A DNA stretch of 64,000 bases from contig UYJD01000014.1 of assembly GCA_900618795.1 (NCBI GenBank), positions 245,427 through 309,426 of the forward strand, written 5' to 3'. Every line of letters begins with the position of its first letter. Positions within the stretch are counted from its first letter, which is position 1. Source of the stretch: Cyanodermella asteris. Taxonomy: Eukaryota > Ascomycota > Lecanoromycetes > Ostropales > Stictidaceae. Below are positions 13,349 to 59,321 of the stretch, one piece after another. The position numbers and the translations under genes are program-made. Under the pieces are notes generated by a model. That model worked only from the letters and a program-made list of their open reading frames with translations, had not been told where the DNA came from and did not search any database.

Positions 13349-15136
13349 AGTGCGGGTACTGCATCGCTTACTGTTCCCGGAGGCAGCGGAGGCAGCAATT
13401 GAGTACCTATGTGCTTACCTAGTACTGCCAGCCTTCTCTGACCGGCAGCGCTAGGCCGTTCTGCATCGAAAGGGAACGACGCGAATCGCAGAATATTTCA
13501 CAATGTCTCCATGGCCTTGTCAGGGAACGTAAAGCTCACGTGATCATGACAAAACGGGGTAGGCTAGTCACAAACTTGGGTATTTTCGACAGTAACTTCA
13601 ATCACCTTTTTAGTACACATGATGCGGCCTGACAGGACACGGTTCGTCATTCGGAGCTAGCGTCGTAGATCATACGCCAACGATTATAAGTCATCGCATG
13701 GCGAGTCTCGGCTTATGCAAAGTGCTCAGATGAAGCCTGATATCTATCGATCTGGAGTCCATCAATTGTAGGAGACAGCAACGACTGACGAGGAATTGAA
13801 GATCGATCGGAGCACATATCGAAGGGCTTGACGTAGGATGTGCAACTACTATAAGTTTTGCTTTTCCACCAGTCCAAATCCACCTGATTTGAGGGCGACC
13901 ATTCGGCTTGGAGCACCTTTCATTCCTGAGCTCTAGCATTCAGTCTCGACGGAGTCCAATTTTCTGAGCCCGTCTACCGCCGGTGGCGAATGCGAGAGCA
14001 GCCGACGCATCGTTGCGCAAGGAGCTCCCATCGCGGTGTCGCCGACGTTCGAGGCTCGACTAGCTGAGCGGTCGCAGGCCAATGTACCCTGACAAGGGCT
14101 CCAGACTGCCCTCACTTGAATGCTAATTCGGACGGATCTCGGTCCGTCGCTTCTTCAATGAAACAGCAGATAACAAGAGCACTCATCTTCGCTCGTAAGT
14201 GTTTTTTGGCCTTGAAATCAGTGATCGAATCGTCCTTTCCTTTCCTTATCGTCCCTCCCAGTGTACGTCCTGCCAGATACACACATCATGAGCGCTCGTC
14301 AGGGAAACCGTTCAAGAACCCATCCCCTTCGAAAGCACCGAGGTTTTGGGTAAGAGACCAATTTCGAAAGAGGCCGGCAGACAGGCGAAACCACGGATCA
14401 ACGCAGTCCCTCTCTGACCCGACGATTGGATAATCTTTTCCCCTGGAAAATCTTCGAAATCTTCAGAATCATCGTCCTCGTCGCTACGACTGTCGCCGAT
14501 CGGGTTGCCAGTGAACTCCAAAGCGAGTACGACCCAGCCATGTTTGACGTGCCCGCAGCCCTTGCCGCCAGTTGCGCCGAAGGTCAAATGGCCGTTTGTG
14601 GTCAGGTTGTGTGATACTTGTGCTGCGCTGGCGATGATGGCGGGATGAGGTGAGGTGACGTTTCCCTTTTATCGGATCTGATCGAGTCAGGGTTGGGTTT
14701 TCAACGGCAGAGGACGACTGCCAATACAACCGAGAGCATGATGTGGCATTACGAGGCTTCTCGAAGCCACGTAACCTACGACAATAAACCGTACCGGCGC
14801 TTGAATACATACGATCTTTGAGAAAAGTCAATTTTCCGATGCGAGACGTTCGAAGCCGTGGTGTGGTCGGAGGGGTTGACACGGTGCGCAGACAGCTTGT
14901 ACCGTGGAAGTACCCCGCTACCTAGACTACCAGGTCTTGGCTTCGCTGGGTCGTTATACATTGTGGTTGGGCCCTCGATGGACCTATGGTCCTTGGAAGG
15001 CTATAGTAGCAGTATGGCAGGCCCTCGATACGTGGCTACTATTACTGAGCGCTGGTGAGGCCGACCCAATTTCAATCGTAAGGTGGTCAAATTCAACGGT
15101 CATTCCGAACCGGGCACTCTTAATGTCACATTCGCG
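13349..15136. other. Gene-poor stretch, nothing recognised
   Basis: About 1.8 kb between the decayed PAS/GATA gene and cardiolipin synthase. Several frames of 60-130 codons overlap (for example 14312-14587 and 14484-14882 on the minus strand) without motifs or a consistent exon structure. No repeat or RNA gene was recognised. Confidence 0.4.
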
Positions 15137-16463
15137 TCACGACTTTCGTTCTGCCTGATTTCTCCTCTCCTCAATGTCCTTTTCGGATAGGATCTTGACT
15201 GCATCCTTGGTATACACGTAGCTTAGACCACTCCATATCGTGGTGGTTGCCACAAGGTATCTGTCGTGATGGTCACGTACAATCAGCAAACCGGGGTCAC
15301 ACGCGTCTCAAAATGGGAGAGACTTACTGCATCCCAACCAGCGCCATCTCAATGTTGGAGCCGTACCCAGTCAGCATAGGCATACAAACCGTCCAGCCAA
15401 TCAGCCCGAGTTGCAGAGCTGTATTGATTTTGCTTATGCCCGTCGGCTTCACCTCGGCGCTCGGGAGTGAGAAATCCCAGTATCTGGCAAATGTCTTGGG
15501 TGGCGGCAATGAAATATAGCGATAGTAAATAGCAGATATAGCCAGTCCGACATCGCGACCTATTATAATTGTGGCACACCAGACTGTCAAACAGTGACAC
15601 GTCAGCGTCTGTTATATTTCACAGATGCATTCATAGAGCATTTGCCAAGCAGCTTGAATATGGAGGAGCTATGGCTCACCTGGTAATACGCCTTTGACCG
15701 CCAAACAAACCGTCAGAACAGTCATAAGGGTTTTGTCGGCCATGGGGTCAATGACAGTGCCGACCACCGTCTGTTGCTTGAAAGTCCGTGCAATCCAGCC
15801 ATCAATGAGATCAGTGATGCCAGCATAGGCGAATAGGCCAATGGCCCAAGCATGGTAGTCGTGAAGGACGAGGTAGCCGATGACAGGCGTGGCAATGAGA
15901 CGAGAGAAGGTCAGAACGTTTGGGATGGTGTAAATGTTCTCGTGCGGAGTGAGGGATTTAACCCTTTGGAGTATTTTGGCGGTAGGTTTCTTTGGCGATT
16001 GAGGTGGTGGCGAGCTGCATCGGGTTAGTTGAGTGAGAACTGATAAATGGTCCAATTGTCCTTCATGTCTGAGCCTGGCCAGTATATTGTCTGCCGGTCA
16101 TCTCCGACTACAACTTGGAACAATTGCCTGAGCCGCGTCTTGGATATGAACAACGTACAGATGTTCATCTTGAACATCAGTTAAGGTACGAAATGAGAGG
16201 ACAGCTTACCTCGGCTTCGCCGGACCGCTCCTCTCATCGGAATACGACCTGGCAGGCTGCTCACGCGACACCAGTCCTGGCTCTGGCAAGCGCCCTGTAA
16301 GGCTTACCTGTAGCGGCGCACCTCCCTTCCACCGTAACCGCGAGCATCCGGAAGATCCAAAACAGCGTCTCAATGTTCCTTGTCGCATGTAGGCTCGTGC
16401 AAGAGCAGGCTGCCTGGGCACTGCCAGTGGTGCCAAGCGGCAGAGCAACGAGGCCGAACTCAT
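15137..16463 (-). CDS. CRD1: Cardiolipin synthase (CDP-alcohol phosphatidyltransferase), mitochondrial
   Basis: Joins CDP-diacylglycerol to phosphatidylglycerol to make cardiolipin in the mitochondrial inner membrane. Four exons on the minus strand: 16463-16210, 16014-15680, 15583-15328 and 15260-15137, giving 322 aa. All junctions are GT-AG and in phase. The first 60 residues (MSSASLLCRLAPLAVPRQPA...) are Arg-rich and non-acidic, as in a presequence. An in-frame ATG at 16499 would add 12 residues. The signature D-x2-DG-x2-AR-x8-G-x3-D-x3-D is complete: D152, D155, G156, A159, R160, G169, D173, D177. Exon 3 supplies IIIGRDVGLAIS and GLIGWTVCMPMLTGYG, typical of eukaryotic cardiolipin synthases. 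The first intron (195 bp) is longer than the others. Confidence 0.92.
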
Positions 16464-54356: not shown

Positions 54357-56309
54357 TCAAATGAATTTGCGCCTTTTCGCCACCGTTAACCCTGTCAAGA
54401 CAAAGAGCGCAATGACACCAACGATGCCAAAGAACCAGCCAAAAGTTTCTTCGCCTTGCCCGGGCACGTGCACGTTCATTCCAAACAGACCGGTAATCAG
54501 GTTCATCGGAACTAGTAGCGTTGCGACCACAGTAATCTTGGAGAGAACCTCGTTCGCACGGTTGCCCTGCATAAGATGATCGACGGACAGGTGAGCCAGG
54601 TAGTTGTTATGGCTGCGCGATAGGATCTTTTCGAAAGAGATCAGGTTGCTCATCATGGTAACAACGTGGTCCTGAATGTCACCGAGGTAGAGACCAATCT
54701 CGTGTCGAGGAGTGACACTGTACTGCTCGTTGCAGCGTTTGGCGAAGCCCTTGATGACATCGCCTTTGCCGCCCAGTAGGCGCATGAGCGACGTGACTCT
54801 CTTGCGGCACTCGCCGATGCTCCGCAAAAGAGGGAGGGAATCTTCGGCACGCAGCACGAAGACTTGATCCTCAATCTGGTCAGACTCACGCTCTATCTCT
54901 TGAAGGTAGGGCGCGAACGAGTCAACGATGTCGTCGATGATGGCGTAGCAGATCCAATCAGCCGTCAAGTTGATGTAGTCCCTCAGTTTGCCAATTCTTC
55001 CACGCACGTGGGCCGCATGGGGCGTTGTCTTGTAGCTGAAGCTGAGGATGCCTGTCCGGAAGACCACCATGTAAACCATCACCGGGTCAAGGAACTCTTC
55101 GCTCGCAGGGTCCATCACAAACGATCGGAACGAGACAAAGTAGTACTGCTTGAAGAGCTCCACCTTTTCGCGGGTCTCTTGCTTTTCAATATCCTCGGCC
55201 GTCAGCCTGTGAATGCCGAAGGCCTTTTGAACCAGATCAACCTCCTCCTCGCTCGGGTTCATGATGTCCAGCCAGAAAGTGCCGTTCTCCTCGGGAATAT
55301 CGAAAAGGTCGCGGAACGATTCGCCAGGCATGAGCAGGTCGCCAATGTCCGAGACATGCACGGTTTGCTCCATTTCAGAAGAAAAGAAGCTGAACCTTTG
55401 ATCCTCTGCAACACTGGGTCGACGTTCGGGGCGGGTTGCAACCAACTTCTCATCGAGTTCGATGGCGTGAGCGTCAATGTCGAGGCCAGAGTCCGAGGGC
55501 CGCAACGTGTGAGACTTGGTTTCGGTGATATCCGTAAGCCTACCATTCTGCGCTCGGCCTGATGAAGTGTAGCTGTCGCGTCGATGGCTAAAGATCTCGA
55601 CCCGGCCACGGTTCTTTTCAGCGACGTACTCGTCAAGTGCTTCGTAGTCAATGCTAAATGACTTGGTCGGCTGCGTCTCGACCGGGAAACAGACATCGTC
55701 CTCTGGCTGGGTACGGTCGTCCACCGGCAGGTTTCGCACGCTGCCGTTGTTGAAAGTGGGACGACGACGGTGGGTGCCACCGGAGTTTGTGCGGTCACGC
55801 TGAAACTCGGAGGGCACTGCGCTGCCGAAAGTGTTGGCCCTCTCGCGACGCCGAGGCTCAGCGAAAGCATCCACCGAGTTAGGTGGAGATGTAGAGCGCG
55901 CCGAGATGGCGTCCTCGTCGATATTGCCGTCTGCCGTCAAAGTCGGGCCGGCGCCTGCCGCTGAGCGGTTTGATCTGCGTCGCCCAGGCGACCTGCCACT
56001 ACGTGGGCTCCTCCGAGTTTCCTTCGCTTCATCGTCCGTGACAGCACCATCTTCGAAATCGCGACCAACAGGTCCGTCGAATGCATTGGGAGGCAGGAGA
56101 AGAGTCGGAGCCTGAACTGATCCGACGGTGCCACGTCGGGGAGCGGGTCCAGTCGACATGTTCTGCGCAACACTTTCTCGTCGACCGAGGATCTCAGGAG
56201 AAGCGGCGGGAATCGGGCTCTGGTGGCGATGGTCGTCTAGCTCGTTGTTGGGGGTGCTATAACGAGTGTTGTCGCCATGGTCCTTGTCAGATCGCGTTGG
56301 GGAGTCCAT
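54357..56309 (-). CDS. CorA-family magnesium transporter (Alr1/Mnr2-like)
   Basis: Single-exon 650-aa protein. The N-terminal 290 residues are disordered, rich in Arg, Ser and Pro (SPRSGRSPGRRRSNRS). The cytosolic CorA domain runs about 300-580: FWLDIMNPSEEEVDLVQKAF, IHRLTAEDIEKQETREKVE, YYFVSFRSFVMDP, then the long stalk helices (YLQEIERESDQIEDQVFVLR, HNNYLAHLSVDHLMQGNRAN). Two C-terminal membrane helices follow, and the first ends in the pore signature GMN within LITGLFGMNVHVPGQ. The tail AKRRKFI is basic. Fungal members are Alr1/Alr2 (plasma membrane) and Mnr2 (vacuole). The long disordered N-terminus is compatible with either, so membrane location is open. Confidence 0.93.
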   Translation of the reverse strand: MDSPTRSDKDHGDNTRYSTPNNELDDHRHQSPIPAASPEILGRRESVAQNMSTGPAPRRGTVGSVQAPTLLLPPNAFDGPVGRDFEDGAVTDDEAKETRRSPRSGRSPGRRRSNRSAAGAGPTLTADGNIDEDAISARSTSPPNSVDAFAEPRRRERANTFGSAVPSEFQRDRTNSGGTHRRRPTFNNGSVRNLPVDDRTQPEDDVCFPVETQPTKSFSIDYEALDEYVAEKNRGRVEIFSHRRDSYTSSGRAQNGRLTDITETKSHTLRPSDSGLDIDAHAIELDEKLVATRPERRPSVAEDQRFSFFSSEMEQTVHVSDIGDLLMPGESFRDLFDIPEENGTFWLDIMNPSEEEVDLVQKAFGIHRLTAEDIEKQETREKVELFKQYYFVSFRSFVMDPASEEFLDPVMVYMVVFRTGILSFSYKTTPHAAHVRGRIGKLRDYINLTADWICYAIIDDIVDSFAPYLQEIERESDQIEDQVFVLRAEDSLPLLRSIGECRKRVTSLMRLLGGKGDVIKGFAKRCNEQYSVTPRHEIGLYLGDIQDHVVTMMSNLISFEKILSRSHNNYLAHLSVDHLMQGNRANEVLSKITVVATLLVPMNLITGLFGMNVHVPGQGEETFGWFFGIVGVIALFVLTGLTVAKRRKFI

Positions 56310-57500
56310 TGTGACGGCAGATTCTTGACCTGACTGCCGCTTGTGTCTTGAGCCTCGCGATGAATTATAATGGTGGATACGTCTTTAGAATGCTTTTATA
56401 TGTGCAGGTCCTTCTCTTTTGCCGGCTTTCCGCCCTTGAAGGCGCGTTCGCTTTTGGGTAAACTTATCCCATTGATATAAGTCGTATAGATGCAGTCGCA
56501 AAGTCTCCGGCTTCCGAGCCGGGCTGAGGAACGGTCAAGGTGACGTGCAAAAGGGCAGTTACGGAGGCTTCAGGTCGCCTCCAAGCAGGACCCTTGGCTT
56601 TGGTCCGAGCAGAGGACGGATGAAGGAGAACTGGAGGATGCGAGGTCCCGCCAACTTGCCGGCAGCAGAGGATGTCTGACCCTGAAAAGGCGCCAGGATT
56701 GGTGGATTGGATTGATGGGTGAGTAGCAAGCACGAGCGGTCAGGCGAACTGACTGGTTTCTCGTGGGTTATCGTGGGGGAGCAGGTGCTCTTGCAAGAGG
56801 ATCGACAGACGCGCAGTGTTTTGCACAGAGCGCGATATGAAGTTGCGTGCGTAGGATGACGCCGGAAGTAGATTGGAAAGGGTGTCTGGAATATAAAGTG
56901 CAGTGCACTGAGGTGGTGAAGAAGTGGGACGGGGGGAGGTTGACGGCGACGGCAATGTTTTTCAAGGCTGGGCGCACAAGTCTGTCGGGGAGCAAAAGCA
57001 ATAATGACGCTCAAACTTTTTTCCCGCGAAAGACTGCAAGTTGTTCCGCAACGTGTGCCGCCATGCCCAGGTCCTTTCGTCGAATTATCTTTCGAGTTCA
57101 CTTTCTTGCTTTTTTCTTCCCCTGGTCTCACCCCAAGTTCTGCTGGAGTCTGGCCTGCTTGCGTGGCTTGCTACATGCAGTAAATCGCTCATCCAGCTGT
57201 CCGTTTTGGCGTGCAGAACCCCTCGTCGCTACTTTCTACGCTCCTCCACGTCTTGTCCCAATTATTCCACGCCCGGTCCACGGCTATATCGAATGGGCAG
57301 CGTGAGCAGCATTTGCAACTGCCGGATCCAGCCCAGTCTGTAAAGCTGACTCTTTGCACCACCGCGCGCGCGACGCGCAAGGATCGGCTGCGCTCCTGGA
57401 GGATCCTGGCATGCACGCACCAATCCCGTTCCCTGCTTTGTACGAGCTGATTCACGCAGCATCATCGCTGCATAGCTACGCCTGCTGCGCGATCCGGCTC
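56310..57500. other. Intergenic upstream of the CorA gene
   Basis: About 1.2 kb containing the CorA promoter and leader. Open frames such as 56559-57131 minus (190 codons) are Ser/Pro/His-rich and unconvincing. The upstream end adjoins the inverted-repeat element. Confidence 0.45.
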
Positions 57501-57505
57501 AGTAG

Positions 57506-57656
57506 CACCCTGCGCAAAAAAAAACGAGACACTGATCTGTGCTTACTCCGCTCTAAAACTACGTATGCTTTCTTTCACGTCGAATAACTCCCGCAACTCT
57601 TAAGCTATAGACCTATAGATAGTCGTAAAAGAATCGTAATCACTTAGCGACTCGAA
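57506..57656 (+). repeat. Left terminal inverted repeat of the MITE
   Basis: About 150 bp starting CACCCTGCGC and running through CTTAAGAGTTGCGG-complementary sequence to the TpA-rich core. It pairs with 57828-57979. Confidence 0.85.
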
Positions 57657-57827
57657 TTATATAGACTTTTAATCCTTTATTCGTAGGTATAGGCTACGCG
57701 GTATACTTAAAGTCGAAGGATACCTCGGGGTTAAGCACTTTTAGTACCCGAAAAAGCATTTTCGGTCGTATCTTTATAATTTTTTCCCGACCGTACCGGT
57801 AGACTTAATATTCTATAATAGATATAG

Positions 57828-57979
57828 TTCGAATCGCGAAGTGATTACGATTCTTTTACGACTATCTATAGGTCTATAGCTTAAGAGTTGCGGGAGTTAT
57901 TCGACGTGAAAGAAAGCATACGTAGTTTTAGAGCGGAGTAAGCACAGATCAGTGTCTCGTTTTTTTTTGCGCAGGGGTG
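57828..57979 (-). repeat. Right terminal inverted repeat of the MITE
   Basis: Reverse complement of the left arm, with 135 contiguous identical positions, ending TTTTGCGCAGGGGTG immediately before the second AGTAG. Confidence 0.85.
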
Positions 57980-57984
57980 AGTAG

Positions 57985-58203
57985 GTCGTCTCCAGGAGCC
58001 AAGGCCGCTTGGGCAGCGCCGGCCCGTCGCCGCGTTGCGAGGCATCCACTGCTCTGTTCGTTGGGGGCGTCGCGGCCCATTTCCCTGCACAAGGATCATC
58101 AACACTTGATTTCGCTTGTCGATTTTGTCGTCATTCGTCTCTATATGTCGTCGCCCACGCTGCTGTGCAGGCTGTGGTCTATCAAATGCAAGCCTCCGAG
58201 CCA
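57985..58203. other. 3' flank of prephenate dehydratase
   Basis: A 219-bp spacer between the transposon and the dehydratase stop codon. Probably the 3' UTR; no gene seen. Confidence 0.45.
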
Positions 58204-59321
58204 CTATACTCCTCCTCTCTTCCTCCAGTTGCCATGCCATCTCCACTCCTCGGTAACCTGCTTGACTTTTTCCAGCGTCTTGTCGACGGCATCCTGGCCT
58301 TTGCGCCCCTCAAATTCGATGAAGAAGGTGTAATGCCAAGGTCGCGTTCGACTTGGCCTGCTGTTGATACTCGTCATGTTGAGGCCAAACTTGGTGAACA
58401 AGTCCAAAACCTGACTCAATGAACCCGGCTTGAAATGATTGATGGTGAAGCTGATGAATGTCTTCCAGTGCCTGGGCTCTGCCGCCTCGCCGTTCTCTAA
58501 AGTCAGCCCAGCAAGTTTTGGCTCCTCGACTGGTTCTGGCTGCTCAGATTCTGTCAGCCGGAGAACTAGGAATCTCGTCTCATTATCGGGCCGGTCTTCG
58601 ATCCCCGAAGCCAAGATTTCCAGCCCGTGCACCTCCGCTGCCATTCGACTCGAAATCGCTGCCGACATCTTTTCGGGATCCTCTGCCACCATTTGCGCTG
58701 CACGGGACGTACTGCTAACCTCCTGTCTCTCCGCACCTTTCAGATGTGCCGAAAGAAACGCCTCGCATTGCCCGAACGCCTGCGGATGCGAGTAGATTTT
58801 GCGAATGTGCTGCACCCGCTTCTTTGGCTTGGCCTTTGGCTTGGTCGGCAGTGGTACCTTGTTCGTAGGCGTAGCTTCCCCAGACTCGACCTCTCCGTCG
58901 TCCGAGGATGATGCAAAACCGAGTAGACAGTGATGCACGGCAATGTAAACTTCACCGATGACCTCGATGTTGTTGTAGTGGCCCGCCTTGTCGCCGAAGA
59001 TGTCCAGTGTCTGGATCACGGCGCCGTTGCTGGAGTTCTCGAAAGGGACGACGCCGAAGCGGACTGACTTGTCTTGCACGGCATGAAAGACGTCTGAACA
59101 CGTCAGTACTTGTAGTCCCAGAAACACGCCGCCAAAGCTTCACTAATAGTACAACAAAAAAACGGTAGTGCCGTACCGACAATGGATCCGCGCGGTTGCA
59201 GGTCGTATTCGCTCGCATCGAAATTGTCCACCGTCGCCTGATGCGTGTACGACGAAGGCGGGCCCAGATATGCTATACCCGGCTTCCCAGCGGACACGAC
59301 GCCATTGCCGTTCGTGGCCAT
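58204..59321 (-). CDS. PHA2: Prephenate dehydratase (phenylalanine biosynthesis)
   Basis: Converts prephenate to phenylpyruvate. Two exons on the minus strand, 59321-59177 and 59093-58204, give 344 aa. The 83-bp intron begins GTACGG, has a TACTGAC branch site and ends GTTCAG. The start MATNGNGVVSAGKPGIAYLG, then GPPSSYTHQATVDNF, is the usual PDT entry. After splicing, DVFHAVQDKSVRFGVVPFEN and SSNGAVIQTLD form the conserved first lobe. The later block with IYSHPQAFGQCEAFL and the STSRAAQMVAED region completes the catalytic domain; the usual Thr-Arg-Phe motif is seen in NETRFLVL. The C-terminal 95 residues are an ACT domain (SFTINHFKPGSLSQVLDLFT, NMTSINSRPSRTRPWHYTFF) for phenylalanine feedback. 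A Lys/Pro-rich insert sits near residue 150. Confidence 0.95.

Follow-up and report, generated by a model that had tools for sequence, protein, structure and literature searches.

In ascomycetes, the MITEs characterized in Cochliobolus heterostrophus were of the Tc1-mariner type, and the part of that article considered here names Transib in its list of superfamilies only (PMC4112212). A wider range of ends and duplications is given in the section considered of PMC12730594: the CMCT clade comprises EnSpm/CACTA, Mirage, Chapaev, Transib, Plavaka, ESTA and Lanisha, and most of its elements end in CA..TG and duplicate 2-5 bp; fungal EnSpm elements have CAC..GTG termini and 3-bp duplications; and the hAT5 families, which fall in a lineage with animal hATs, make 5-bp duplications. 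An element with CAC ends was analysed here in a 64-kb window (the whole stretch of DNA studied) of the Cyanodermella asteris genome; a literature search, with the terminal sequence not among its terms, did not find a description of its transposon family.

The element (57506-57979, 474 bp) ran from CACCC at 57506 to GGGGTG at 57979, and we consider it, with a probability of roughly 0.85, to be a non-autonomous cut-and-paste DNA transposon (MITE). An inverted-repeat search placed its two 155-nt arms at 57508-57662 (+ strand) and 57822-57976 (- strand), on either side of a 159-nt loop (57663-57821); no other inverted repeat of 30 nt or more, its arms up to 5 kb apart, was reported in the window. 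The arms were 98% complementary, with mismatches at 57646, 57651 and 57657. The perfect match between arms described in an earlier note on this DNA was there, though its length had been given as 135 positions and was measured as 138 nt (the first 138 positions). The predicted fold of the element (-313.3 kcal/mol, z -29.6) was equalled by none of 100 dinucleotide shuffles, its high stability being due to long arms that dictate the pairing. The left terminus, CACCCTGCGCAAAAAAAAACGAGACACT (57506-57533, + strand, 28 nt), had one C fewer than the right terminus, CACCCCTGCGCAAAAAAAAACGAGACACT (57951-57979, read on the - strand, 29 nt), so that CACCCC at the right end was 1 nt longer than CACCC at the left. 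AGTAG, a presumed target-site duplication read directly from the sequence, adjoined both ends (57501-57505 and 57980-57984); the flanks agreed over exactly 5 bp, and, if equal base frequencies are assumed, two 5-mers at fixed positions agree exactly by chance once in 1024 cases. The claimed MITE-like inverted repeat was therefore real, as judged from the arms, the AGTAG on both sides and the shuffled folds, and the shared CACCC(C) termini abutting AGTAG were likewise read at both ends. Coding capacity was minimal: 7-12 stops in each of the six frames, and a longest open stretch of 45 codons.

The whole element, the left arm and the loop (query 57650-57835) were each single-copy in the searched genome (28.5 Mb in 25 contigs, some stretches of which read N and in which repeats may be undercounted). 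Inverted ends, a length of 474 bp without a transposase gene and an AGTAG duplication at one insertion were thus accompanied by one miniature copy instead of several; the element was filed as MITE-type in spite of this, since MITEs are often, not always, multi-copy. The single copy that would count against mobility according to the earlier note thus applied to the full element, arm and loop, and not to the termini, which recurred at four other sites. Three patterns of the terminus were each found at nine places in the genome: CCCTGCGCAAAAAA with up to one mismatch (five places for the control read backwards), GCAAAAAAAAACGAGACACT with up to three (control, two) and CACCCCTRCGCAAAAAA with up to two (control, two). 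Six ends were judged to be family termini: the two at 57506-57979 and those at C7:1775568, C15:1334800, C20:218605 and C15:621437, which lie on two further contigs and on the element's own. At these four other sites the terminal 29 nt had 0-2 differences or an A run shorter by 2 nt. Read inward, five of the six termini began with CACCCCT and the left end of the element with CACCCT (CACCCTG); GCAAAAAAAAACGAGACACT was exact in five of six, the terminus at C20:218605 having two fewer A; and TGCGC varied by G to A at C7:1775568 and C15:1334800, and read TATGC at C15:621437. The other places matched by the patterns were dropped as chance: at C7:196737, C13:185471, C15:3257560, C20:553391, C11:59562 and C16:1007286 a correct start or CGAGACACT was missing, or both were. 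C16:663456 (with CGAGACACT, without CACCCC) and C15:2609763 (which begins CACCCCTGC and is without the A run and CGAGACACT) were dropped too. A 22-mer of the terminus had no match in viral contigs.

The 5-mers before CAC at the five sites were AGTAG, GCCGC, CCTCG, CCATC and GCGGC, and homology began at CAC in all of them. Because the other insertions share the terminus from this same CAC and have different flanks, the boundary of the element is fixed, and the recurrence of a near-identical terminus from one base bears out the MITE-type element with CAC ends of the earlier note; from it follows the assignment to a MITE-type, low-copy family. On the + strand, the 5-mers at C7:1775563-1775567 and C15:621438-621442 were both GCCGC; chance, a G/C-rich target preference and a rearrangement involving the two copies are indistinguishable as its source.

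The ends at C7:1775568, C15:1334800 and C20:218605 formed one kind, with 95-97% identity over 174-230 nt. The end at C15:621437 was of another kind, with approximately 39 nt in common with C7:1775568 and C15:1334800 and no significant similarity to them further inward. Runs of N lay beyond the relatives' ends (approximately 13.2 kb on C7, 10.1 kb on C15 from 1335034 on, 4.2 kb on C20, and 4.1 kb at C15:617167-621220), and a partner end was seen at none of the four in the fetched stretches. For this reason the 5-bp target duplication proposed earlier, which AGTAG supports at 57506-57979, was seen at this one insertion. The inner arm and loop had no convincing similarity to the relatives' ends beyond the termini. 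Homology to the C7 end first looked suggestive with simple shuffles (6/500 for the arm, 5/500 for the reversed loop) and was weakened by dinucleotide shuffles: 59/2000 against C7, 418/2000 against C15:1334800 and 522-1454/2000 in the other tests for the arm, and 200/2000 against C7 and 1155/2000 against C15:1334800 for the reversed loop.

A different dispersed repeat (TGTAACGCGGGCAC...) started at approximately position 230 of the C7 copy (C7:1775797-1775886), and 37 of the 40 scored matches (128 candidates) were to it. Its segment TGTAACGC was also read directly before the N run at C15:617167, where this repeat may, going by that segment, be present too.

In the relative at C15:621437, a frame lay 63 nt in from the end, in which 18 residues were followed by a stop and a further 32 residues and which continued into N. 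By eye we took it to resemble the start of a fungal transposase, and it may be one. Pfam returned one sub-threshold match (HTH_7; 13.2 bits where 23.8 are required, E 0.099) for the stretch of 32 residues and none for a 51-residue piece; a PDB search gave five chains up to E 10, none of them credible (best 0.54). A second copy of the frame was not found in 75 genome loci and the window. The active transposase source suggested in the earlier note was not borne out, the sole coding trace seen being this frame with its in-frame stop and its run into N. Another short frame, MALLRELTVGERNSIIGVKRNSIKLT (C15:617033-617125), had no Pfam match; by eye it resembles the start of a Tc1-type transposase.

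The composition of the element was strongly RIP-like. TpA/ApT and (CpA+TpG)/(ApC+GpT) were 1.57 and 0.42 in the element and 1.77 and 0.11 in the loop, versus 0.55 and 1.41 in the 1 kb to the left, 0.44 and 1.37 in the 1 kb to the right, and 0.59 and 1.27 in the window. Among 1271 segments of 474 nt each, those over the element were the extreme on both indices (best 0.39 and 1.62). The usual RIP thresholds are a TpA/ApT of at least 0.89 and a value of the other index of at most 1.03; they were passed by 26 segments (10 overlapping the element), and are for that reason not special in the window when taken alone. The largest group outside the element was at 14551-15374, where eight overlapping segments (starts 14551 to 14901) passed, two of them with a GC content of about 51-52%. 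Support for RIP from the relatives was mixed, since differences fell in CpA/TpG context in 4/5 cases between C20 and C7 and 3/4 between C20 and C15:1334800, but in 1/7 between C7 and C15:1334800.

From the left end, the first 159 nt still had eleven CpA/TpG sites, of which seven lay within 36 nt of that end. The arms agreed at the remaining CpA/TpG sites within the 138-nt run, and the RIP-like composition was common to both. This is most simply read as mutation first, with the two arms made copies of one another afterwards. Clean arms had been taken in the earlier note as a sign of recent mobility; they are no proof of it, because nowhere in the window is RIP-like composition more extreme than in the element, and two strongly RIP-like arms may match through how they were made. 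The joint occurrence of RIP-like composition and identical arms is a warning against dating such elements by how alike their arms are.

For the superfamily, the flanks at the five sites excluded TA, TTAA and TWA as required targets. The dinucleotides beside the termini (AG, GC, CG, TC and GC) did not follow the TA rule of Tc1/mariner. PIF/Harbinger duplicates TWA and piggyBac TTAA; the trinucleotides were TAG, CGC, TCG, ATC and GGC, and TTAA was seen at none. The 8-bp duplication of hAT and that of approximately 9 bp of MULE do not fit the flanks of this copy, which agree over exactly 5 bp; a 2-bp duplication (AG) is permitted by the flanks, and would make the matching 5-mers a further coincidence. 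Ends of the CA..TG type, combined with the 5-bp duplication seen at one copy, would be compatible with the chemistry of Transib or of hAT5-like elements.

Movement of the element by a lineage other than Transib, for instance an EnSpm-like (CMCT) one or a hAT with 5-bp duplications, is a tentative reading with the odds somewhat against it. It is favoured by the ends and duplications described for CMCT, fungal EnSpm and hAT5 in the section considered of PMC12730594, which on the other side gives 3 bp for the duplication of fungal EnSpm and places hAT5 with animal hATs. Domain searches of the genome outside the N stretches also bear on it: Transposase_21 (CACTA-type, PF02992, E 1) and the hAT dimerisation domain (PF05699, E 0.001) had no matches, but, like RAG1 (PF12940, E 1), which had none either, they were positive in 0 of 14 control genomes, and these three zero counts are consequently not evidence of absence. 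The MULE domain (PF10551) was also without matches there, its controls being positive in 3 of 14 genomes. It is unlikely that the element is the miniature derivative of a hitherto undescribed fungal lineage that has CACCCCTGCGC ends and duplicates 5 bp without sequence specificity, and that a palindrome-forming or homogenising step copied its arms from each other once RIP-type mutation had taken place, after which it still transposed.

A MITE of the Transib superfamily, moved by a RAG1-like transposase, was considered improbable. Transib elements duplicate 5 bp of target, prefer G/C-rich targets and end in a CACWATG/CACAGTG-like heptamer. In agreement with this, the element had CAC at both termini and what looks like a 5-bp duplication, and G/C made up at least 4/5 of the flanking 5-mer at three of the other four sites. 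Against it, the ends read CCCTGCGC after CAC, unlike that heptamer: with CACCCCT in five of six termini and CACCCTG in one, the agreement is limited to CAC. Other CA..TG lineages, moreover, exist in fungi (PMC12730594, section considered). Were the transposase Transib-like, the few records of this kind from fungi would gain one more.

The neighbouring frames, all on the - strand, were a prephenate dehydratase (58204-59127; PDT and ACT), a frame without a Pfam match (56559-57131) and a CorA-like transporter (54357-56309); the element lay 1196 bp upstream of the CorA-like frame. That the hairpin is kept as a small-RNA source or a regulatory structure of a neighbouring gene, as its very stable predicted fold and its position 224 bp downstream of the prephenate dehydratase frame might suggest, is very unlikely, given that the fold follows from transposon arms and that an Rfam search of 57000-58500 up to E 1 had a single row (mir-350, E 0.98), outside the element. 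Faulty replication or repair might instead have duplicated the sequence in inverted orientation on the spot, with no transposon ever involved; this would yield clean arms and agrees with a single-copy arm and loop, and is nonetheless scarcely probable in view of the termini that recur at four sites from the same base and of AGTAG at both ends.

The MITE-type transposon is thus left as the preferred reading, with termini common to four other sites, one of which has a candidate transposase start, and with relatives whose interiors read N; its family is apparently small, low-copy and decayed. We infer that a transposase given in trans by a longer relative would have bound the shared terminal 29 nt or so, excised the element at CAC and, through a target cut staggered by 5 bp, inserted it. 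The arms would have been made alike, after RIP-type mutation, by inverted duplication of one end or by later homogenisation.

Exact terminal sequences are now available for a fungal family of DNA transposons with few copies. The element resembles Transib in its CAC start and in the apparent 5-bp duplication of its one copy, and differs from it in the rest of the heptamer. Like the ascomycete MITEs in the part considered of PMC4112212, it is short, non-coding, bounded by terminal inverted repeats and near genes; it differs from them in its 155-nt arms and in being single-copy as a full element, and from those of C. heterostrophus, which are Tc1-mariner elements at TA, in having no TA beside the termini at five sites. 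As far as the section considered of PMC12730594 goes, it shares the apparent 5-bp duplication with hAT5, unlike it in that hAT5 belongs to a lineage with animal hATs, and differs from fungal EnSpm in duplicating 5 bp (one copy) instead of 3. With the CMCT clade as a whole it shares CA..TG termini, in its case CAC..GTG, and its 5 bp mark the upper limit of the 2-5 bp given for that clade.
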